Both the position numbers and the translations under genes were made by a program. Below the pieces are notes generated by a model. The model was not told the origin of the DNA. It did not search any database and saw nothing but the letters and a program-made list of their open reading frames with translations. A stretch of 31,696 nucleotides of DNA, taken from positions 1 through 31,696 of IMG/VR virus record IMGVR_UViG_3300036785_000006, one strand, 5' to 3'. Of this stretch, positions 7,374 through 21,363 are shown piece after piece (position 1 is the stretch's first letter; the number at the start of each line of letters is the position of its first letter). Source of the DNA: a virus.

Positions 7374-7829
7374 ATGCCCGACCTGCGATCCAAAGCCCGC
7401 AAGTTCTATGACTTTGCTACCATGCGACTGAGTGGCAAGAGTGACATTTGCTACCGAGCCTACGACCTGCTGCGTCCACCGGAGAGAGGGTACAAGGCTC
7501 ATATGCTCGAACATTCATTCGAGCGTATGGCGAAGCATGCTGGCCTCGAATGGGCGATTGGCCGAGACATAGAAGTACTGGAAACAATCCAAGCGCACTT
7601 CAGGAGCATGGGGTTCGGTAAAATCTATATCCCCGGATGCCGCAAGTTGGTACGGGAGTACTATATCTATAGTCGCCTTCAGTATGGTGGTATGCAAGGC
7701 TGGACCATGCGTGATCCCGACGAGAGTGCCATGATCTACGAGGCACACATTAAAGCATGTGCCAAGGACATAGAAGTGGCCCCGGAGCGCGTGATTTCCC
7801 CGAGGCCACTCGTTGGTCCGTTGTACTGA
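7374..7829 (+). CDS. Hypothetical protein, last gene of the plus-strand arm
   Basis: This encodes 151 residues. GAGGGGAG at 7358-7365 precedes the ATG, after a 105-base gap that holds only a weak CGCC/GGCG hairpin just past the previous stop. The protein is basic and helical-looking (MPDLRSKARKFYDFATMRL) with several Tyr, Arg and Cys residues and no signal peptide or membrane segment. The middle (HFRSMGFGKIYIPGCRKLVREYYIYSRL) has no motif I can name. No family was recognised. Being the distal gene of the replication arm, it may be an accessory or host-takeover protein, but there is no evidence. Its stop codon lies in the loop of the hairpin at the convergence of the two arms. Confidence 0.7.
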   Translation: MPDLRSKARKFYDFATMRLSGKSDICYRAYDLLRPPERGYKAHMLEHSFERMAKHAGLEWAIGRDIEVLETIQAHFRSMGFGKIYIPGCRKLVREYYIYSRLQYGGMQGWTMRDPDESAMIYEAHIKACAKDIEVAPERVISPRPLVGPLY

Positions 7830-7848
7830 TGCGTGCCGACAGCGGACC
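7815..7848. terminator. Bidirectional hairpin between convergent arms
   Basis: GGTCCGTTGT (7815-7824) pairs with ACAGCGGACC (7839-7848) in a 10-bp stem with one G-U pair and a 14-base loop. The plus-strand stop (7827-7829) is in the loop and the minus-strand stop codon (7848-7850) abuts the stem. It lies exactly where the two transcription arms meet. No U-run follows on either strand, so it may be a weak terminator, a protector of both 3' ends, or a rho-assisted site. Confidence 0.45.
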
Positions 7849-8228
7849 TACTTAGGTTGCGGTACTACCGGCGGGAGAGGATGCCCGACACTCGGTTGAT
7901 CACCCGGAAGACCCTGATCGGGATGTACAGGAGGAGCCGGCAGGGTATTGTCAGGAGCGCCCGGACAACCGGGCCAGCCTCCTACCGGCAATGCCGGTAG
8001 TGAGTTGTCAATGCCAGGGATATCACCGGGTAGCGTGTTGTCAGGGTGTCCCGGTACTCCTACATCGGGATGCCCCGGCAGGCTGTTGTCGATCTGTTCG
8101 CCGCCAGTCTTGGCAATGATAAGCTCGCGGTAAATATGCTCGTAAGCTACTGCGGGCGGTACATCCTTGGGCTGCGCCAGCTTGACGCGGCGAACTGAGG
8201 AACCGAGTGGAACGCGAATAACTGTCAT
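7848..8228 (-). CDS. Proline-rich PDNTLPG-repeat phage protein
   Basis: This encodes 126 residues. AGGAGA upstream of the ATG at 8228 fixes the start; an earlier in-frame ATG has no ribosome site. The first 50 residues form an ordinary mixed region (MTVIRVPLGSSVRRVKLAQP). The rest is a degenerate repeat of about 8-14 residues built on H/A-PDN-x-LPG: DNSLPG, HPDNTLPGD, IDNSLPA, APDNTLPA, HPDQGLPGD. Proteins with PDNxLP or PDQGLP repeats occur in several podovirus genomes near the tail genes, without an assigned function. As the distal gene of the late operon after the spike it may be a virion decoration, linker or assembly factor. The repeats should be an extended, flexible, possibly polyproline II chain. 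Confidence 0.7.
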   Translation of the reverse strand: MTVIRVPLGSSVRRVKLAQPKDVPPAVAYEHIYRELIIAKTGGEQIDNSLPGHPDVGVPGHPDNTLPGDIPGIDNSLPALPVGGWPGCPGAPDNTLPAPPVHPDQGLPGDQPSVGHPLPPVVPQPK

Positions 8229-8284
8229 GGTTCGTCTCCTAGCTAGGGCGATCACATTAGCACTCCAAAATCATAATGAAAAGC

Positions 8285-11014
8285 CTAAAGCCACTCGCTA
8301 AATCCAGCCACCGGAGTACCCGGTACAGTAGTAACTTGGCACCCTTGTCCTACTATTGCCCACGGCCAATAGTCACCTGAGTTGAAGATTGATCCTCCGG
8401 TACCAGCAGCGGGATTACCGTTCTGATACGCGCCACCTTTCGCAACCCAAAACAGGCCAGCATTAAAGTCAACGCACATATCTACAGTATCGCCAGTGTA
8501 CCAAGTAGCACTTACACCATAATCTTGACCATGCGCCATGATTTGACCATAGCCGACATAGCCCGCTGTCCAGTCATACAGCGCATCCCACGGAGCGGCA
8601 GTGAGGTCAACTTGGTTCCATGCAATCCCTATGACCATTGGGTTATCGTTGGGGTCCGGTGAGGCAACGTCACAATGGTAGGCAAAGTGCCACTTGCCAG
8701 TGTTATGCATAGTAACACCAAGCACGCCTTGGTGAGCATCGGTAGGACCGGGTGCAGCAGTATGATTACTGTTAGACAATACAAGGTTTGTATTCTTATG
8801 CGCGGGATCGAAAGCTAGACCTACTACCGACGCAACCCCACCGGTTAAAGTCCTTTGATCATTAAACTGGACCATTAATACCCCTGCGGTGGGGAAACCT
8901 ATGTAGCATCTACCGTAAATATTAGGGTCCGCTGCCAGACAGCTAGGACGATCACAGAAGCCACCCGGATACTGTATCATGCGTACCCAGTTTGCTCCAT
9001 CGTCCATGCTCATCCATAGTCCATATGTCATCCATACCGATGGCGTATAGGCTCCGTCCATGCGATGCCCGATAACATATATTATGGTCGGATCGCCCGG
9101 TACTGCTGGTGGACCAAAACCAACACCGTAGCAGTCCGAAAAGGTAAAGCCAGAGCCATTAATGTTATCATTGCCGGATACTGGACCCCAATGGTAGCCG
9201 CTATCTGTGGACCTGAATACACCATAGCCTGCATCACCGGGCGCCCACCACAATTCGGTAGCTGACCGCTGGACGAGCTTGCCGTGGTAAGAGTCTCTAT
9301 CCACGTTAACACCAAGAGTACCACTGTATATGCGGGTAAGGTTTGCACCCTTATTGGTAATCCTCCACAGCCCACGAGAGTTCAAATCATCAGGCGTCAA
9401 GCTATCACTGTTAATTAGGTACACCCATCCTGCACCGCCGACAAAGTGATCGCGTATTAATATAGACCTCTGGATAAACATAGAAGAGTGGAACCAATGC
9501 ATAACATCATTACCGAGTCTAACTGGCGTCCAGTTAATACCGCCATCAACGGTACGCATAAGATGTGCATTATTAGTCTGTGCCTGTAGGAACGTGTTAT
9601 GGTCCCATGCGATGATATTACCACCGCCAGCGGCACCATCCTGCATACCAACATCACCCTCGAAGCTTCCCCATGTTCCACCATTGTTAGGACTGGACAT
9701 GCCCTTGCCTTCCTTCACGGTACAGACAAGAAAGTTCGGATCGCTCTCAGCCCAGTCAACGCCTTGGCTATGACGAATAGACTGTACGCCATCATTAGCG
9801 TTCATTGTCGGGAATACCTTCCCCGGCTTAAGTATAGCCATAGCAGTACGATCCTGCATGGAGCACAGTAACGTACTATCAGGCTTAACTTGCATATTGT
9901 CTATAACCATATTCTCGCAGCCGACTGACTGTTCAAGCCATGTCATTGGATTTGTATAGACGTGAGGCGCTGTACCTTTCCAGCAACCTATACCCTCGAC
10001 TACCCATATGTTATCATGGCTATCTACGCATAGCCCACCGTTCGCCATGTACCACTCAGCAGTAGTCTGATGCCATGTGATACGATCAGCTACCCGGTTC
10101 TTGTCCATGTATCCTGTAAAGTTATCTCCGTTATCAGTTGAGAGGTACAAGCTACCACTTGTATCCATCGTGTATATGTAGCCCGTTACCGGACTTATTG
10201 CTATTGAATGTCCTTGTACCGGAGCTGTGCCGAGCCATGCACTCCCATTCCACCGATTATACGGAGCATTAGTGTCCATATTAGTAGGATGCCCGATAAC
10301 GTGCAAGTCACCAACAGAAGTATCAATAGCTAAATGGCACATCAGCATAGTATCAGAACCGGGCACCATAGCCCATGTAGCACCACCATCACCAGACCAA
10401 TATAATGCAAGACCGTTCCACACATAGATCGACTGACAACGCCCACCAGATGCCGAGCGCGGATCAAATACTATTGCTGCTTTAACTGGTAGTGGTATCG
10501 TACTAGTCGGTATTATGGTCCAGTGTCCGCCTCCGTCTAGTGTATACTGCAAACCAAGCAAGGGTGTACACGAGAACAAAACATTAGGGTTCGTAGGGTC
10601 ATACCGAAGTGGCGTTCCCATTGTCCGCACACTATCATTAGTAGATGCATTAGGATCGCCGCCCCATGCTTGGTTCCATGTAACTGTATTGCCACCATCA
10701 TATGTTATGTACAGTCGGCCCCACTGAATAAACGCCATACACTGCGAGTTAGTAGGCGCTATAGCCGCATCATAAATTCCATTATGAAAGATACCATCAG
10801 CGGTAGCAGGGATGTAGTTATCCCCGAGACGCATTAATGGTGTCCACTCTATATCAGTGTCCTTACGGAAATAAACGCCACCAACGTCATTGCGTATGAT
10901 CTTGGTATTGTCGTTAGCTATCTGTATGCCTGTTACCCATCCACCAGCACCGACCACGTTACGAGACGTAGACCGAGTACCATAGACTTGTTTCGTAGAT
11001 AGATCGACAGTCAT
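8285..11014 (-). CDS. GH74-like beta-propeller tail spike, predicted polysaccharide depolymerase
   Basis: This encodes 909 residues with many Asp-box (BNR) repeats of the form S/T-x-D-x-G-x-x-W: TYDGGNTVTW, TLDGGGHW, SGDGGATW, STDNGDNF, TVDGGINW, STDSGYHW and SMDDGANW. The N-terminus GGWVTGIQI...RNDVGGVYFR and the downstream RTMGTPLRYDPTNPNVL closely follow glycoside hydrolase family 74, whose members have two seven-bladed propellers and cleave beta-glucans such as xyloglucan. The two catalytic Asp positions of GH74 are apparently kept: D43 in NDVGG and D420 in GVDWAESDPNFL. There is no signal peptide, as expected for a virion protein. It lies among the fibre genes, so a spike that degrades a host surface polysaccharide is the best reading. 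The substrate is unknown. Confidence 0.8.
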   Translation of the reverse strand: MTVDLSTKQVYGTRSTSRNVVGAGGWVTGIQIANDNTKIIRNDVGGVYFRKDTDIEWTPLMRLGDNYIPATADGIFHNGIYDAAIAPTNSQCMAFIQWGRLYITYDGGNTVTWNQAWGGDPNASTNDSVRTMGTPLRYDPTNPNVLFSCTPLLGLQYTLDGGGHWTIIPTSTIPLPVKAAIVFDPRSASGGRCQSIYVWNGLALYWSGDGGATWAMVPGSDTMLMCHLAIDTSVGDLHVIGHPTNMDTNAPYNRWNGSAWLGTAPVQGHSIAISPVTGYIYTMDTSGSLYLSTDNGDNFTGYMDKNRVADRITWHQTTAEWYMANGGLCVDSHDNIWVVEGIGCWKGTAPHVYTNPMTWLEQSVGCENMVIDNMQVKPDSTLLCSMQDRTAMAILKPGKVFPTMNANDGVQSIRHSQGVDWAESDPNFLVCTVKEGKGMSSPNNGGTWGSFEGDVGMQDGAAGGGNIIAWDHNTFLQAQTNNAHLMRTVDGGINWTPVRLGNDVMHWFHSSMFIQRSILIRDHFVGGAGWVYLINSDSLTPDDLNSRGLWRITNKGANLTRIYSGTLGVNVDRDSYHGKLVQRSATELWWAPGDAGYGVFRSTDSGYHWGPVSGNDNINGSGFTFSDCYGVGFGPPAVPGDPTIIYVIGHRMDGAYTPSVWMTYGLWMSMDDGANWVRMIQYPGGFCDRPSCLAADPNIYGRCYIGFPTAGVLMVQFNDQRTLTGGVASVVGLAFDPAHKNTNLVLSNSNHTAAPGPTDAHQGVLGVTMHNTGKWHFAYHCDVASPDPNDNPMVIGIAWNQVDLTAAPWDALYDWTAGYVGYGQIMAHGQDYGVSATWYTGDTVDMCVDFNAGLFWVAKGGAYQNGNPAAGTGGSIFNSGDYWPWAIVGQGCQVTTVPGTPVAGFSEWL

Positions 11015-11023
11015 GGCATGATC

Positions 11024-12988
11024 CTAGAACAGCTTGTTGAACCAAGACCGGATAACATCCTCGTCCGACCCAAAGCGCGTACTACTTACAAGTGTAGCCG
11101 CATAAAACTGCATATCCGAAGTAATACCAGCAGGCTCCGCTGGGCTATTACCTAAGCAGATACCCGGCGCTGTTGTGTTACCAGCCCACGCACCAGCCGG
11201 AGGCGTTACGGTATCAATTTTAACATAGGAATTACCAGACTCATGGTTTTCAAAAATGACATGGTTAGCCAAATCTACAGGCGTACTATTTGATGCGCCG
11301 CTGCCATCGAATACGGCTAAATCATTAGCTGCAACGAAATACAAATAACCAGAGTACGAGGACGCATTGTCTCCCGGCGTCCATACTCTATCATCTGTTG
11401 GAGTACTATTAAATTTAACAGCACTCATACGCTGCCATACATTGCTCGGATATAGCGTCAGAGTGGTATTAATGAGACTAGACAATGGCCCATGCTTGGT
11501 AAGCCACATCTTAGTACCAGATACATTAAGTATAAAATAGTCACCACCGGTCGGCATCGTTAGATGATAACCATTTCCAGAGAGATCATTAATACGCCTC
11601 ACCGGATCACCGTTCGCTACCGCTGGCGTTGTACCAGCTACATCTTGGAAAATACTACCAGAACGAGCAATCTCGTATCCCGCCGTAGCTCGCGTATAAT
11701 CATACGGTGGATCGAAAGCCGGATTGTGGATCACATCTATATGGATGCTCAGTACGTTGCTATTGTTACCACCTAGATCAACACCGGTAACTGTAGCATC
11801 CAAAGCCGGAGCACTGTAGTAGTCTAGCGTGCCATTACCAACCATCTGAACATTAAAGGACGTTCCGGGCGCTACACCGGTAAACTGGAAAGCACCAGCA
11901 CTCGGTCCAGCAAGTACTGGGTTACACGGCTCACTGAAAGTAACCGGTAGTGATATCTGCGATCTATCAGGATAGCTAAATGTGCCACCACCTGTTGCAG
12001 TCGGTGCAGTAACATCGCCCCACTTGAGGAGATTACTGAAATCACTGACTAGCGAGCCAGCGGCATTCGAGCGTATAACCGCAACGAATATCTCGCCATT
12101 TGCCAGTGTAAAATTCTCAAGCCCCGGAAATACAATCGGACCACTAGTACCTACCGTAACCCATACCGAAGTGTACACTGGGCTACTCATATCCATATTG
12201 TGAGAGACTATGCACTGTAGTCTATCGGTAGCTGGTATCACTGCTAGATCAGTAGTGAGCTGTATCGGATAAGTAGTCTGTGTCGCTACCGGAGCTATGG
12301 CAATAGCAGGCAGACCAACAGGCGGTGCGTTCTGGACGGTAACATTAATATTACTCGTCTTAGGACTATTAATGCCATCATAGTATGACTCGGTAAGCAC
12401 GACAGTAGTACTAGACGGAGAACCGGTACCGTCATACGCCCATGTGCGCGCAGTACCATTAATATCGAAACCAACTGGCCCACCGCTTATAGAGATAGAC
12501 GACGATCCGGGGTAGGAACCATTAATGGTACCACTTGACGGTGTACCAATTGTGAAAACAGTACTGGATAGTGTTAGTGCCGCAAGTGTTACCTCAAGAA
12601 CATTAATGACAGCAATGTTAATAGTGGTGACAACATCCGCCTGTCCGCTCTTGGACGCGGTAATAGTCGCGTGAAGGAACTGCTCGGACTCGTAGTCAAT
12701 CGCGCCTGCCACATTAAGGTTGCTACCGGATATTGCCAGTAGACCAGCGGGACTTTGTGAGGTAAGCGCATAAGTCCATCCAGTACTACCGCTCGGTTGA
12801 TTACCAACTGACAGTGTACCGATAGTAGTACCAGTAGCCGTATTCTCTGTTACCGAAGCGTTACTCAGTAACACAGTTGGAATAAGCTGTTGAAGCAGTG
12901 CAGCCTGCCCACCCTCGGTAATGCCAGTGTAGTGACCGAAAGTCCATTGTCCGTAGGACGGATATGTAGGGTCCGGTACAAAGCTCAT
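11024..12988 (-). CDS. Tail-associated protein with cadherin/Ig-like and concanavalin-type lectin domains
   Basis: This encodes 654 residues. About residues 40-125 form a cadherin-like beta-sandwich (VTENTATGTTIGTLSV...IDYESEQF...). Ig-like or fibronectin-like segments follow to about residue 400, with one starting DVTAPTATGGGTFSYPD. The last 230 residues look like a concanavalin A/laminin-G type jelly roll (FQDVAGTTPAVANGDPV, DLSGNGYHLT), ending in SDEDVIRSWFNKLF, common at the end of such phage proteins. These domains bind carbohydrates or surface structures. The start overlaps the fibre stop as ATGA, and the GH74-like spike follows 9 bases after its stop. It is probably a receptor-binding or adhesion component of the tail. 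Domain edges are estimates. Confidence 0.7.
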   Translation of the reverse strand: MSFVPDPTYPSYGQWTFGHYTGITEGGQAALLQQLIPTVLLSNASVTENTATGTTIGTLSVGNQPSGSTGWTYALTSQSPAGLLAISGSNLNVAGAIDYESEQFLHATITASKSGQADVVTTINIAVINVLEVTLAALTLSSTVFTIGTPSSGTINGSYPGSSSISISGGPVGFDINGTARTWAYDGTGSPSSTTVVLTESYYDGINSPKTSNINVTVQNAPPVGLPAIAIAPVATQTTYPIQLTTDLAVIPATDRLQCIVSHNMDMSSPVYTSVWVTVGTSGPIVFPGLENFTLANGEIFVAVIRSNAAGSLVSDFSNLLKWGDVTAPTATGGGTFSYPDRSQISLPVTFSEPCNPVLAGPSAGAFQFTGVAPGTSFNVQMVGNGTLDYYSAPALDATVTGVDLGGNNSNVLSIHIDVIHNPAFDPPYDYTRATAGYEIARSGSIFQDVAGTTPAVANGDPVRRINDLSGNGYHLTMPTGGDYFILNVSGTKMWLTKHGPLSSLINTTLTLYPSNVWQRMSAVKFNSTPTDDRVWTPGDNASSYSGYLYFVAANDLAVFDGSGASNSTPVDLANHVIFENHESGNSYVKIDTVTPPAGAWAGNTTAPGICLGNSPAEPAGITSDMQFYAATLVSSTRFGSDEDVIRSWFNKLF

Positions 12989-14919
12989 CTTAGCATGACC
13001 TGTTCAAGAGCGGAGAGCCGCTGTTCCTGTCCTACCATCATAAACGCGATAAGATCGGGAAGCATAATAGAATAACGATTACCACTGGGCGTTACCACCT
13101 CTTCATGGTTCTCGTCGTGATGAATACTCTCTTCCCACTCACTGTAGCTGACAAAACCATAATCGAGTGCATTAAGACCATTAGCCTCAAATATTGATAT
13201 CGCAGTCTGTGCAAGAATACCACACTGTAGCTTGGCAGCTTCGCCTTCTGTATCCAGATCGCGGAGCCACTGATATATACCAATCTCTTTTACAAGCTCC
13301 TTGGATACCGCCAGTTCTACATCAGTCAGCCCACCACGCCATCGCTTCTCGCGAGCATCCGAAGTCGTCATACTGGACGACATGCACCACACGCTGCTCC
13401 ATCTATGCCCCGGCGCTCCGCAGATCGCATTGCCATCAGCAACAGGCTCAAAGGCTGTATCATAGTACAGAAAACAATCGCCAGTTGTACTGTGCCATAG
13501 CTTATTAGTATTAGCTTGAGCGTATATGAGCCAGTATATAGAATTATTATCCCGTTCTGTGTACTGCAAAGCTGCGTTACCTGTATCCGATCCTAGTACA
13601 CCGTGGCAACTAACAGTGCCCCATACATCTATGCCTGCACCGCCTACCCGTAATGATCGTACTCCATTAGCAGAAAAACTAAGTAAACCATCACCCTCAC
13701 CGAACATGCCAGTATCATTATCAGCGGTAGTACGATAGGCAGGATTAGCAGCATTACCGGCACCAGCTATAATGCATCCATTAGGTACCTGAAACAGCCC
13801 CGGCTGGCTCGTGAACATTTCTGTATTATTAACAACAAACCGAAGTGCACCAGTACCACGATTATAATTAAGCCAGCAGTTAGGATTAAAACCAAAACCC
13901 GGACCACCAGCTACATTAAGGGCTATATAAAATTGGGTATCGTAACCGGGATATACCGCGCCATCTACAAATATATTACCAAATGTCTGTACGTTACCAT
14001 CAGTCTGTATTAACATATTATTGTTAGCATTAGCACCGAGGTACAATCCTCCTACCTGCGAGCGAAAGTATCCATTGCCACCGTCATGCTGCCACAAACC
14101 AGCACCATTATTCAAATTAATTTGCTGGCCATTAACCTGCATATTAGTATTAAAAACATGAGGTCCACCATTCTCATTTTGATACTGAAGACCCCCACCA
14201 CCTGCAAATGGTATAAATCCTATATAACCTTTACGAGCACCACTAGCATTCTGAAACGAAATATACCCGGTATTATTAGCACCGCCAAGATTTAATAATA
14301 CTTGCCCGTTACCGGGAGAAGCCACTGCTACTGAACTAGTAGTACCTATAGTACCTGTATTATTAATACCATTACTATACACTACTGCATTAAAATGACC
14401 GTTTTGAGCCCATACTTGACCGTTTGTACCTATATCTCCCGTAACTGAAAGAGAACCACTAACAGTAGCAGTATTAAGGACTGTATTACCAGTAACAGTA
14501 AGATTAGCGACACTTAAATCACCAGTAGCAGTAATACCACTTACATTAAAGTTCCCAGTAGCCGTAACGTCACCAGTGACCTGTAATCCGGTAGCAGTCC
14601 ACAAACCAATCTGATTACCATTAATGCCTACACCTAACTGAGCCACACCGGGCTGATACAAGCCCGTATTCGCATCGAGGTTGAATGTCAGACCGGGAGC
14701 AGTTACCGAACCGGGCGCAACACCTAGAACATGATTACCGCCCATCTGCAATGAGTTCGTCATCGGTATCAAGCCATTACGCATGAATACCTGATTGAAC
14801 GCCGCAGCGAAGTTATCATCTTCCTCGTCATGGCGATCCGCCATGATATGAATACCGGAGTCTCTATCGTTCTGCCAGCTATGCAGACGGGTAAAGTTGC
14901 CAGATGGATCGAAAGGCAT
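12985..14919 (-). CDS. Tail fibre with C-terminal S74 intramolecular chaperone
   Basis: This encodes 644 residues starting MPFDPSGNFTRLHSW, an N-terminal module shared by many podovirus fibres, followed by DRHDEEDDNFAAAFN. The start at 14919 was chosen because AAGGA lies 7 bases upstream and the previous gene's TAA ends one base before it. Residues about 130-190 carry VTATGNFNVSG-like beta repeats. The C-terminal domain is peptidase S74: TTSDAREKRW with Ser520 and Asp521, the site where endosialidase-type chaperones cut themselves off after trimerisation. The final helix QEQRLSALEQVMLR is typical of the family. Its middle third (about 13900-14600) is noticeably AT-rich compared with neighbours, consistent with modular exchange of receptor-binding sequence. 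Confidence 0.88.
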   Translation of the reverse strand: MPFDPSGNFTRLHSWQNDRDSGIHIMADRHDEEDDNFAAAFNQVFMRNGLIPMTNSLQMGGNHVLGVAPGSVTAPGLTFNLDANTGLYQPGVAQLGVGINGNQIGLWTATGLQVTGDVTATGNFNVSGITATGDLSVANLTVTGNTVLNTATVSGSLSVTGDIGTNGQVWAQNGHFNAVVYSNGINNTGTIGTTSSVAVASPGNGQVLLNLGGANNTGYISFQNASGARKGYIGFIPFAGGGGLQYQNENGGPHVFNTNMQVNGQQINLNNGAGLWQHDGGNGYFRSQVGGLYLGANANNNMLIQTDGNVQTFGNIFVDGAVYPGYDTQFYIALNVAGGPGFGFNPNCWLNYNRGTGALRFVVNNTEMFTSQPGLFQVPNGCIIAGAGNAANPAYRTTADNDTGMFGEGDGLLSFSANGVRSLRVGGAGIDVWGTVSCHGVLGSDTGNAALQYTERDNNSIYWLIYAQANTNKLWHSTTGDCFLYYDTAFEPVADGNAICGAPGHRWSSVWCMSSSMTTSDAREKRWRGGLTDVELAVSKELVKEIGIYQWLRDLDTEGEAAKLQCGILAQTAISIFEANGLNALDYGFVSYSEWEESIHHDENHEEVVTPSGNRYSIMLPDLIAFMMVGQEQRLSALEQVMLR

Positions 14920-14920
14920 C

Positions 14921-17485
14921 TTACGGTCCTTTAGGTGTAGAGTAGTCACCGGTATCAGTAACAGAGCCAGTTAGACCAGGGTACTTCTGATTTTGATTAT
15001 TAGCTATATACGCACCCATCGTAGCATTCCTAGCGGCACGCACTACCGCTGCCATTCTATTAGGTGTAGCACGCTGAAGTAAGGAAGAAGCAAACTGGGG
15101 ATCAAGAATAGATCTCTGTACCAGAGCATCTACCTTACCTTGATTACTGAAATGTTCGGCTGCAAAGTGGATCAATCGAGAAGTAAAACCCGTCTCAGCA
15201 GGAACTGTACCGAGCTTACTCGTAGTATCCTTTGGAGTACCACCAGTACGGAGAAACTCTTGGGTTTCAAGTTCTTTCTGTATACGTCCAAGCGCGTTAC
15301 GCTGATCGTCACTAAGCAGTGTTGTCCCTTCAGTTTTCGCCAGTATATTCTTTATCGCTGTACTTTTGTTACCGGGCACTACATTACCCTGTTCATCTAT
15401 GGTAGCACCCGACTCACCTATAGTACTAATATGATCGGCCAAACCCGCACGCAAACCATCTATGGCGTTCTGATCGCCAGAGGCTAGCACACTATCGCGT
15501 AGTTCATTAAAGCCTTCAGCATTCTTCTTACCAAGTAAACTCGTGACCCTTGTTTGAACATCCGCACCCGGAGCCGAGACCTTATCAAGCTGGCTACCTT
15601 TGAAATCTTTGACATTAGAAGCCGCTTGCCGAATATCATTAATATCATTCTGTAATGCAGGGAACCGCTGCGCAAGCTGATCGTAGTCAGCATTCTTAAA
15701 ATCTTTTACTGCACCGGTATCCACCATACGCCGTAGCTGTTCACGCATAGCTTGTTCACTAGCATTCGGTCCTACCGCTTGGGTAAGCTGATCGGCCATA
15801 TCACCACCAGCCCCACCTTTCTGCACAAGCTGTTCCGGTAGTGCGGTATCACGCACATTAGGCTCATTATACTTACCGGTACCAAATGTATCACCAACCG
15901 GACCTTGTTCAAAAGTCTGACCCTGATACGCTCGTACCGCTTTTGCATCATTCAGTCGCCGAATATATTGGTTCGGTAAATCAGGTGCTACAGTCTTATT
16001 AATGGAACTCCGTAAGTCTTCCATAGCGGCAGCTTTTTCTGCCTCGCCACTCACTCTCGCATTACCAGCAAGATCAGCAAGCCTCTGGTCTATATTGGTA
16101 ACAGTCCTTGTATTCAAGTTACCTTCACCTAGAGTATCGAGCAAACCACTTATAACCCTATTAGCTTCAGCAGGAGCATCACCGCGTAAATCACCATACC
16201 ACTTTTGGCCCACGCGCTGTATCTGATTTATCAAGCTTTGTGGATCTGTCTTTACACTGATACCATTCTGTAAAACAGGATGACTGTACGCTTCAGCACT
16301 ATCAGCCTTAGCAGCATCATACGCTTCTGCTACTTTTCCACGTATGTCTCTACCACTGGTAGCTTGATCGACAAGACCACCGATCTTATTACGCGCCGCT
16401 ATCAGTACGTTAGAAAGCCCCGTCTTGATCGTCTGTCCTAGCGTTCCTACCGATCCAACGTCACCTGTGCCGAGTTGCGTTAATGCCGCCGCTGTACGCG
16501 CCTGTGCATTATCCTGCATACGAGCTTGAATATCATCACTTGGTACACTACGCTGTAAACCCGTTAACCCCCTATTACCCGCTACTTCCGCGAGAGTAGG
16601 ATTAACACCGGTAACTGGTGTAGGAGCATTAGCTATATTACTGATCGCTTGGCTCTGTGCCGCTTCATCACCAGCGGCACCCTTTAGTATCTTTGCTGCC
16701 GGTCCAAGTCCTTCGCCTATAGTATGACTAGCAATTTTACCAGCAGCCCGACCAGCAGCCTCCGCCGCAGTAGGTACCGCAATACCGGTAGCAAGCGCAC
16801 CTACCGATGCAGCAGCTTTCTCCCACCACGGAGCATTAGGATCAAGAATCTCCGGTAATGCACCTACCGTACCTGATGTTGCGCCAGCAACACCTTGAGT
16901 AGCTAAACGATCCGCCGCCGGTAATAATCTTGATGCAATACTCGCTGCCGCTGGCGCTGCACCCGCTGCACGCGCTGCCAATGCCTCTTCACCAATGCCC
17001 GGTATTAATGCAGCCGCGGCACCGCGAGTTGCCGCACTAGCAAACTTCTCACCGGTCGTTACAGGTTGAACAAAATGACTAGCGGCTTTATCCGTAATAC
17101 TTTGTACTAAATCTCCTGAGGTTGGCGCGCTACCACCCGACAGCCCACGCATCATAGCATTTGTAACCATTTGCTCCGGGTTCATAGCTTGCGATGCAAA
17201 TTGGGATACATCACCTAGCGCGTGCACAACATCCCCGAGACGCATAGAAAGCGTCTCACCCCATGTACGCGGCTTTTCCTCAGGAGCAGGAGCAGGGGTA
17301 GGAGTCGGACTTGGCGCGGGAGTTTCAGTAGCCGCCCTACTGCCACCATCCATACTAACAATCTTCTTACCGGGAAAATCCTTTGCAGCTTGACTAGCAA
17401 CATCTTGTGGCCCAGTCCCATCTGGCACACCACTATAGGTATGAACAGTACCGTCCGAAAATCTGACAGTAGGATTAAAGGGCAT
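14921..17485 (-). CDS. Large internal virion (DNA ejection) protein
   Basis: This encodes 854 residues. The N-terminal TVRFSDGTVHTYSGVPDGTGPQD is a small domain found at the start of podovirus internal virion proteins. A Pro/Ala linker (TPAPSPTPTPAPAP) follows, then a long Ala/Gly-rich helical body with amphipathic or weakly hydrophobic segments such as GVAGATSGTVGALPEIL and ASVGALATGIAVP that could insert into membranes. The rest is helical and rich in Gln, Asn and Asp, ending with NQNQKYPGLTGSVTDTG. No enzymatic motif was seen. It lies between the lysozyme-bearing protein and the tail fibre, the usual place for ejection proteins that form a channel across the envelope. The ribosome site is weak; the start is 9 bases past the previous stop. 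Confidence 0.72.
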   Translation of the reverse strand: MPFNPTVRFSDGTVHTYSGVPDGTGPQDVASQAAKDFPGKKIVSMDGGSRAATETPAPSPTPTPAPAPEEKPRTWGETLSMRLGDVVHALGDVSQFASQAMNPEQMVTNAMMRGLSGGSAPTSGDLVQSITDKAASHFVQPVTTGEKFASAATRGAAAALIPGIGEEALAARAAGAAPAAASIASRLLPAADRLATQGVAGATSGTVGALPEILDPNAPWWEKAAASVGALATGIAVPTAAEAAGRAAGKIASHTIGEGLGPAAKILKGAAGDEAAQSQAISNIANAPTPVTGVNPTLAEVAGNRGLTGLQRSVPSDDIQARMQDNAQARTAAALTQLGTGDVGSVGTLGQTIKTGLSNVLIAARNKIGGLVDQATSGRDIRGKVAEAYDAAKADSAEAYSHPVLQNGISVKTDPQSLINQIQRVGQKWYGDLRGDAPAEANRVISGLLDTLGEGNLNTRTVTNIDQRLADLAGNARVSGEAEKAAAMEDLRSSINKTVAPDLPNQYIRRLNDAKAVRAYQGQTFEQGPVGDTFGTGKYNEPNVRDTALPEQLVQKGGAGGDMADQLTQAVGPNASEQAMREQLRRMVDTGAVKDFKNADYDQLAQRFPALQNDINDIRQAASNVKDFKGSQLDKVSAPGADVQTRVTSLLGKKNAEGFNELRDSVLASGDQNAIDGLRAGLADHISTIGESGATIDEQGNVVPGNKSTAIKNILAKTEGTTLLSDDQRNALGRIQKELETQEFLRTGGTPKDTTSKLGTVPAETGFTSRLIHFAAEHFSNQGKVDALVQRSILDPQFASSLLQRATPNRMAAVVRAARNATMGAYIANNQNQKYPGLTGSVTDTGDYSTPKGP

Positions 17486-19592: not shown

Positions 19593-20930
19593 TTACCAAA
19601 CCTTTCCGTAGTCCACCATCAGATACCCTGATGGGTCTGTCAGTACCGCACTTGGACGTACCGATAGAACTTCATCCGCCATAACGCCAAACCGGACAGT
19701 AGTATCACCGATGTAGCGAAATACATAAGTTTTAATGCCATTAGCCAATTTACCGATCTGTTGAATACGAGCCTTCAACCTACGATCCGAATGCAAGAGT
19801 GCTGCACCACCTAAGCTACCGGCTAACCCAAACACACTGCCAAGCGCAGATTGTTGTTGCGCCAACTGTTGCTGATACGTTTGCTCCTGTTGACCGTACT
19901 GTGTTTCTACCAAACCAGCATAGTTCACTGGCGCTTGCTGTGATTGAGCATACTGAGCAAATTGTGGGTTCTGTACACCACCAGCCTGTCCCATTAATGC
20001 AGAAACATCATTCAATGGCATATTACGCAGGTACGCGGCTTCCTGTATCTGCTGCTGCCGAGCTTGATTATTAAAGGTTGCATTCGCTTGCGCTTGTGCA
20101 GCCGACTGCTGCTGTGCAGTATTACCGAATGATGCTTGCTGTAAGTTCTGCTGATTAGCTTGTGCTTGCGCTTGGTTCGCGAACTGTCCTTGGGTAGTAT
20201 CTTCACCCACCGCTTGTTGCCTCGCCGATAACGCAAGACCAAATAAGCGTGACTGTTCCGCACCGCCCGCCTGAATACCGGAGTAATTGGCTTGGTTGTA
20301 TGCGTCCGTCTTTGCCATGTTGAATTGCTGCATGGCTCGCTGATACGCAGCACTATTCTGTGAGACACCTTCGCCAGCCAACTTAGACTCAAGTTGGTTC
20401 TGTTCTGTTTGAAATTGTGGATCGAGGCGCGAGGTAGCTTGCTTATACAGAGCATCACTTACCTGCTGTGCTTGTGCACCAAAATCTGAAGAACCGGGTA
20501 GTGCTGGCGCGTTACCGAAGTCCAATGACGACTGAACATTACCACCGGTACCGTATGAGTTCTGTATAGGACCGGTATTAAAGCCAGTCTGTAGGGGCGT
20601 CATACCAGCGTATGAGAATGGCGTCGACTGCGCTTGAGCTACATTATTAATGTTACTCTGCGCCAGATTAGCTAACGAATTTGACACACCAGTCTGTGTG
20701 TTATATAATTGTTGCTGCCCCGGACTATATGTCTGATTACTGGTATACTGTGGCGTCCCATCAGGATTAGTACCGGTCTGATTAAAAGTCAAAGAGCCTT
20801 GCGGAGTATTCTGATTGATGCGGTTCATTTCGGCGTTGGTTATCGCCGTCTGCTGGTTCATCTGCGCTTGTTGCGCCGCCACCGCGCTCGGATCGGGCGG
20901 CGTCGGTGCCTGCGGTGTCGATTTGCCCAT
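19593..20930 (-). CDS. Gln/Asn-rich internal virion protein with S74-like C-terminal domain
   Basis: This encodes 445 residues. The first 320 are dominated by Gln, Asn, Ala and Ser and look helical (QQAQMNQQTAITNAEMNRINQN, then long runs like QANQQNLQQ). The C-terminus has LLHSDRRLKARIQQIG, then NGIKTYVFRY, FGVMADEV, and ends YLMVDYGKVW. This is the short chaperone-like endosialidase/S74 domain with Ser381-Asp382 at the cut site, found at the ends of many phage structural proteins. AGAGGA 8 bases upstream supports the ATG. Its first 149 bases overlap, in another frame, the end of the GNAT gene. It is likely an ejection or tail-core protein released by self-cleavage. Confidence 0.75.
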   Translation of the reverse strand: MGKSTPQAPTPPDPSAVAAQQAQMNQQTAITNAEMNRINQNTPQGSLTFNQTGTNPDGTPQYTSNQTYSPGQQQLYNTQTGVSNSLANLAQSNINNVAQAQSTPFSYAGMTPLQTGFNTGPIQNSYGTGGNVQSSLDFGNAPALPGSSDFGAQAQQVSDALYKQATSRLDPQFQTEQNQLESKLAGEGVSQNSAAYQRAMQQFNMAKTDAYNQANYSGIQAGGAEQSRLFGLALSARQQAVGEDTTQGQFANQAQAQANQQNLQQASFGNTAQQQSAAQAQANATFNNQARQQQIQEAAYLRNMPLNDVSALMGQAGGVQNPQFAQYAQSQQAPVNYAGLVETQYGQQEQTYQQQLAQQQSALGSVFGLAGSLGGAALLHSDRRLKARIQQIGKLANGIKTYVFRYIGDTTVRFGVMADEVLSVRPSAVLTDPSGYLMVDYGKVW

Positions 20931-21363
20931 TCTCGCGATCCTCTAAGTAACGGCATTCGCTGGCTAATAGGCCATAGATCAGAGCATCTTTAATGCCATC
21001 ATAGCCTAACCGCAAATTACCCTCAAGGGTGAAACCAAGCGCATTAAGGAACTCCCGGCAACGCCTGTTACTCTTCTTAGTAATACTGGTACAACGCGCA
21101 CAACCTAACTGTTGAAACACATATTGGAACACTCCGCGTACAACATCTGGTTGCCATGCTATAGGCGTTTCGGCTGCACAAGATATCTGACAGTCATGCC
21201 CACGATACTCGGATATCACCACACCCGCCACAAAATGCCCAACATCATTAATAACTGCAAAGGCAGTTACCATAGACAAATCAGGATTAAAGTTCACCCC
21301 GGCCATTTCACCAACATACTTACATACCAAACGGGTATTTGGTCCTGCCGAAATAAGTTTCAT
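20782..21363 (-). CDS. GNAT-family acetyltransferase of phage type
   Basis: This encodes 193 residues. The core (residues about 35-145) has the GNAT order: a strand with AFAVINDVGHFVAGVV, then a Arg/Cys-rich helix (KKSNRRCREFLNALGF), the EGNLRLGYDG strand and the IYGLLASECRYL end typical of the small acetyltransferases found in late operons of podoviruses. The usual family ends near ECRYL. Here about 50 polar residues follow (TAGTDAARSERGGGATSADE and more), read from the same DNA as the start of the virion gene at 20930 in another frame. The start overlaps the preceding stop as ATGA. The target is unknown; acetylation of a virion or host protein is a guess. Confidence 0.82.
   Translation of the reverse strand: MKLISAGPNTRLVCKYVGEMAGVNFNPDLSMVTAFAVINDVGHFVAGVVISEYRGHDCQISCAAETPIAWQPDVVRGVFQYVFQQLGCARCTSITKKSNRRCREFLNALGFTLEGNLRLGYDGIKDALIYGLLASECRYLEDRENGQIDTAGTDAARSERGGGATSADEPADGDNQRRNEPHQSEYSARLFDF

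Follow-up and report, generated by a model that had tools for sequence, protein, structure and literature searches.

A phage GH74-like tandem-propeller protein with a conserved catalytic aspartate pair as a candidate host surface glycanase

Gene content of the locus

The window, i.e. the whole stretch of DNA analyzed here, spans 31,696 bases and is a contig from an uncultured virus. Its late operon is podovirus-type, lies on the minus strand, and encodes a terminase, portal (phrog_12082), capsid protein (phrog_9953), tail protein, amidase-like protein, tail lysozyme protein, and fibres. The portal is approximately 30% identical to those of Myxococcus phages Mx8 and Mx9, Stenotrophomonas phage BUCT555, and Rhizobium and Ruegeria phages. 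Searches with the capsid protein gave eight strong matches in 385 genomes from the class of a Sphingomonadales MAG and one match in 399 genomes from the order of a Massilia genome, which leans, not decisively, toward an alphaproteobacterial host. A GNAT-like acetyltransferase (20782-21363, minus strand; phrog_4470) is also encoded inside the virion operon, where it overlaps the structural gene at 19593-20930; it is conserved at the same place in contigs L061, L069, L077, and L085.

The last large gene of this structural operon (8285-11014, minus strand) starts with ATG and encodes a protein of 909 amino acids in an open frame. A GH74-like tandem seven-bladed propeller occupies residues 16-721 (8852-10969), and a C-terminal extension covers residues 732-909 (8288-8821). 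Directly downstream, a short Pro/Gly-rich repeat protein of 135 amino acids is encoded (7848-8255, minus strand), with repeats of the PGHPDNTLPG type and a weak homologue in contig L183. Upstream are a gene referred to here as the partner (11024-12988, minus strand), whose product consists of an N-terminal motif of about 21 residues, a cadherin-like domain, and then about 450 residues, and a tail fibre gene (12985-14949, minus strand) whose product carries a C-terminal S74 intramolecular chaperone and an N-terminus conserved in backbone relatives.

The GH74-like gene was found in none of the 25 backbone relatives examined, several of which are fragments. In L061 and L069, whose capsid proteins are 82-86% identical to that of the window, the slot between the fibre N-terminus and the gene at 7374-7829 contains only fibre-like and small proteins. 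Because the GH74-like gene follows the fibre gene at the end of the late operon and is absent from these relatives, it can be regarded as a swapped host-contact module. Both its location among tail and receptor-binding genes and its variability between relatives are those expected of a phage spike.

Fold of the GH74-like protein

An HMM built from five GH74 proteins (four plasmid-encoded, one from an unverified scaffold) matched the protein collinearly over residues 21-276 and 287-714 with 85.7 bits (about 86-87), and no other window protein scored above 0. Shuffled controls reached at most 7.2 bits when residues were permuted and at most 67.5 bits when blocks of 45 residues were permuted; local repeats therefore supply much of the score, and blade order supplies the rest. 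Together with the full-length fold described below, these controls rule out chance Asp-box similarity. The motifs that had first drawn attention to GH74 (VTGI, NDVGG, RTMG...DPTNPNVL, and GVDWAESDPNFL) are all present in the frame. The accompanying count of at least seven Asp-boxes was slightly generous: six motifs of this type are located at residues 158, 207, 292, 488, 602, and 669, and RNDVGGVY, which also fits a loose Asp-box pattern, is the catalytic segment. Curated libraries gave weak matches only, such as 38 bits to NF045728 (F510_1955 glycosylhydrolase), below the curated cut-off of 175 bits, and 16.3 bits to Sortilin-Vps10, below the Pfam gathering score of 33 bits, a threshold that some relatives of the protein pass locally. 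The protein does not match a non-catalytic BNR protein better than it matches GH74.

An AlphaFold2 (AF2) model based on phage sequences only (8 rows) had a pTM of 0.58 and a poorly modelled C-terminus, and GH74 ranked first in its fold comparison (Z 35.8). The core modelled from 41 rows, none of which came from canonical GH74 plasmid loci or the PDB, reached a pLDDT of 85.2 and a pTM of 0.88. In VIA comparisons, this core superimposed on GH74 5fkt with a Z of 38.9 and 2.7 Å over 631 residues; all 17 GH74 entries listed gave Z values of 34.0-38.9 and 2.7-3.3 Å over 629-648 residues, and the closest unrelated fold gave 25.5. The double propeller proposed in the preliminary description is thus supported by both the collinear HMM match and the predicted structure, and a single propeller is excluded at the level of evidence that AF2 and fold comparison provide. 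In a BFVD fold search, the best TM-score was 0.25, and no viral protein with a double propeller matched well.

The C-terminal extension (phrog_10080) is possibly SPRY-like, with TRIM67 and TRIM9 as weak best PDB matches (E 0.6-0.9), and it is missing from the 56% identical relative in contig L052. It may contribute to glycan or virion binding. A 28% match to this domain occurs in Achromobacter phage 2-1 (L006:5001-5540), on the strand opposite the annotated gene WKV22039.1, an annotation that may have been placed on the wrong strand.

Phage relatives and phylogeny

Viral relatives were detected with an alignment that included GH74; a single-protein search of viral contigs gave none, and a canonical-GH74 alignment used as the query gave no confirmed viral relative. 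Eleven distinct phage contigs, including the window, encode a GH74-like protein. In the contigs that were checked, portal, terminase, capsid, tape-measure, or fibre genes are nearby, and different phage types are represented. Relatives beside phage structural genes occur in siphovirus L052 (portal, tape measure, and J), podovirus L059, L055, L057, L058, L060, and L054.

In a tree computed with a quick method, with two long branches and no inferred root, eight phage proteins grouped in a single clade (SH-aLRT 97) separate from canonical GH74, and the window protein belongs to this clade and not to the canonical one. The phage clade also falls outside the sampled cyanobacterial, verrucomicrobial, chloroflexal, and Bacteroidota GH74-like lineages. 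Among bacteria, a varied set of non-canonical GH74-like proteins (L140-L181, from Akkermansia, Opitutaceae, cyanobacteria, Chloroflexota, and Flavobacteriaceae) keeps both catalytic Asp residues and has a changed second motif (WDxGxF or DRxGF).

Searches of 50,697 phage records (INPHARED copy) with three phage-type proteins and a GH74 fragment gave no propeller-spanning match except in one unverified phage scaffold of 4.9 kb (MT838787), which clusters with canonical and bacterial GH74 and was considered probably bacterial. A Sphingomonadales contig (L151) with 35% identity over the first propeller was also set aside; it is cut by the contig end and has no clear phage neighbours.

Cassette organization and putative virion attachment

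The N-terminal motif of the partner (MxF...P.YGxWxFG) occurs at the same slot in relatives with unrelated C-termini. Its last 450 or so residues share 49% identity with the C-terminus of a siphovirus protein (L052:5154-7991). This siphovirus protein begins with a tail tube domain (PF18906), and its gene lies directly upstream of the 56% identical GH74-like gene. A docking or binding domain may decorate the tail tube of this siphovirus. In both the window and L052, 9 bases separate the partner-type gene from the GH74-like gene. The shared domain and the identical gap support a two-gene cassette, with the window and L052/L053 as the one independent pair for co-inheritance, and indirectly support virion attachment via the partner.

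No signal peptide was recognized at the N-termini of the window protein or of its relatives in L052, L055, and L059. The relatives in L054, L057, and L060 have signal-peptide-like or lipobox-like N-termini, and these starts make it probable that the infected cell exports some of the proteins instead. In two of these contigs (L060:4214-10130 and L054:934-10119), several tail-region proteins in a row, the GH74-like one among them, have N-termini resembling signal peptides, lipoboxes, or TAT signals.

The tail spike originally suggested is plausible in view of the gene position, the N-terminal motif of the neighbour, the siphovirus cassette, and the lack of a signal peptide. However, no recognizable anchor or trimerization domain was found in the protein itself, and the S74 chaperone is located on other window proteins and not on this chain. 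The missing anchor and the starts of the three relatives would also suit an active GH74-like glycanase that is not part of the virion, but is soluble and released by lysis (or, in relatives that carry signal peptides, exported) and strips exopolysaccharide or biofilm matrix to let progeny spread. We consider such an enzyme unlikely here, since the window protein lacks an export signal, its gene directly follows fibre and anchor-type genes, and the siphovirus carries the partner domain as a fusion with a tail-tube-like protein.

Catalytic residues

Mutated PDB entries are useful to locate the catalytic positions of GH74, as 5fkq reads RTAIGG and 5fkt reads LGAIGG where relatives carry Asp. In PoXEG74, D70 and Asp477 are catalytic and Trp347/Trp348 are required for processivity (PMC10317168). 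With a chain offset of 32, D70, D477, and W347/W348 were mapped to RTDIGG, LGDVSGF, and AWWPD, respectively. Alignment of the phage protein to PoXEG74 places D43 at D70 and D388 at D477, and the WWPD segment is missing. D43 (codon 10886-10888, minus strand) lies in RNDVGG, the counterpart of RTDIGG, and D388 (codon 9851-9853, minus strand) lies in MQDRTAM, the counterpart of LGDxGG. Because LGDxGG holds the second catalytic Asp and aligns with D388, this residue is assigned as the second member of the pair.

Both catalytic Asp residues had been described as kept, with D43 and D420 as the candidates. The pair is indeed intact and D43 was correctly named, but the second residue is D388. D420 (codon 9755-9757, minus strand) is part of an S(I/V)DYAE segment (SVDYAE in the window) that is variable in relatives, with A, T, S, N, or E at this position in many of them; it was rejected on this ground and because the PDB mutants and the PoXEG74 numbering point to D388. 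The correction matters to anyone making catalytic mutants.

D43 and D388 are invariant in 51 sequences, comprising 8 phage proteins (approximately 25% identity), 38 bacterial relatives, and 5 GH74 proteins, and three phage members identified subsequently (L196, L199, and L200) keep both as well. Only 17 residues are invariant over the 51 sequences, and three of these are acidic (D43, D388, and D522). The superposition on GH74 suggests that D43 and D388 would face each other across a cleft.

A GH74-derived propeller that has lost catalysis and only recognizes a receptor should also be considered. Phage adhesins often keep a fold while catalysis is lost, and the GDxGG segment of GH74, with its small residues behind the second catalytic Asp, reads QDRTA in the window protein. 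The invariance of the catalytic pair, which makes up two of the three invariant acidic residues, nevertheless makes a binding-only protein quite improbable and argues for a catalytically competent one.

Proposed function

The xyloglucan-binding platform formed by the W347/W348 pair in processive members is absent from the window protein, together with WWPD. This absence bears more on substrate than on family, because endo-dissociative members vary at these positions too. The loss of the Trp pair and the separate clade point to a bacterial surface glycan rather than xyloglucan as the substrate. That the phage instead helps its host to degrade plant xyloglucan or other biomass polysaccharides is very improbable, for although canonical GH74 enzymes are xyloglucanases and GH74 has been listed once among the auxiliary metabolic carbohydrate genes of cold-seep viruses (PMC8319345), the window protein has neither a signal peptide nor the processivity pair, its clade is separate from canonical xyloglucanases, and its gene lies inside a structural operon beside fibres.

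With somewhat better than even confidence, we favour a catalytically competent, phage-specific GH74 relative that is most likely carried by the virion and hydrolyses a host surface glycan unlike xyloglucan. The protein would dock non-covalently on the product of the directly upstream gene (11024-12988), and its two seven-bladed propellers would clamp a polysaccharide chain. D43 and D388 would then act as the acid/base pair, and the chain would be cut by endo- or exo-glycanase action, with an inverting mechanism presumed by analogy with GH74. The target may be a capsule, exopolysaccharide, or LPS glycan of the host with a repeat that differs from xyloglucan, and its hydrolysis would allow the phage to reach a secondary receptor.

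A broader reading, which we put forward tentatively and at slightly less than even confidence, is that the phage proteins represent a hitherto undescribed, phage-only family of tandem-propeller glycanases sister to GH74, deployed in a swappable two-gene virion cassette against bacterial surface polysaccharides. The docking domain would be free in podoviruses and fused to the tail tube in siphoviruses, and the module would be common to unrelated phages of the same host. The cassette, present in both a podovirus and a siphovirus, offers a case in which the transfer of complete host-entry modules between unrelated phages can be tested. With a GH74-type clamp that keeps its catalytic pair, phage host entry would gain an additional enzyme class and probably new glycan specificities as well.

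Comparison with known systems

The window protein resembles GH74 xyloglucanases (CtXGH74A 2cn3, CjGH74 5fkt, PoXEG74 6mgj, and OXG-RCBH 1sqj) in its full-length tandem seven-bladed Asp-box propellers, both catalytic Asp positions, and the N-terminal GGG(F/W)VxG and R(T/N)D(I/V)GG segments. It differs from them in that it is phage-encoded, only 20-25% identical, placed in a separate clade, and extended by a C-terminal domain. In addition, it lacks the processivity Trp pair and the INDDxHQ segment, and has QDRTA instead of GDxGG.

Among known phage depolymerases, most are beta-helix enzymes and a smaller number have a single propeller. The catalytic residues of GH58 differ from the GH74-like pair. 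The GH58 endosialidase tailspike of phage K1F is trimeric with a beta-helix stalk, and has a single six-bladed propeller and S74 on the same chain, whereas the window protein is a double propeller and S74 is located on other proteins. The K1F protein is likewise an Asp-box propeller and is a capsule-degrading phage spike (PMC2716378). Among the openly accessible papers searched, none that joins GH74 with tail spikes was found. The cold-seep study, compared here by description only, likewise places GH74 in viral contigs, and its available part does not cover tail location, catalytic residues, clade, or cassette. In the DepoScope work, n-bladed propellers account for about 12% of the polysaccharide-degrading folds detected in phage proteins (PMC11326577). 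Propeller folds are inferred there to degrade polysaccharide, as proposed here, and GH74 and xyloglucan are unmentioned. Measured against these systems, the proposed spike would be unusual as a GH74-type tandem propeller, but not as an Asp-box propeller, since such a spike is known from K1F and n-bladed folds are among the polysaccharide-degrading ones detected in phage proteins.
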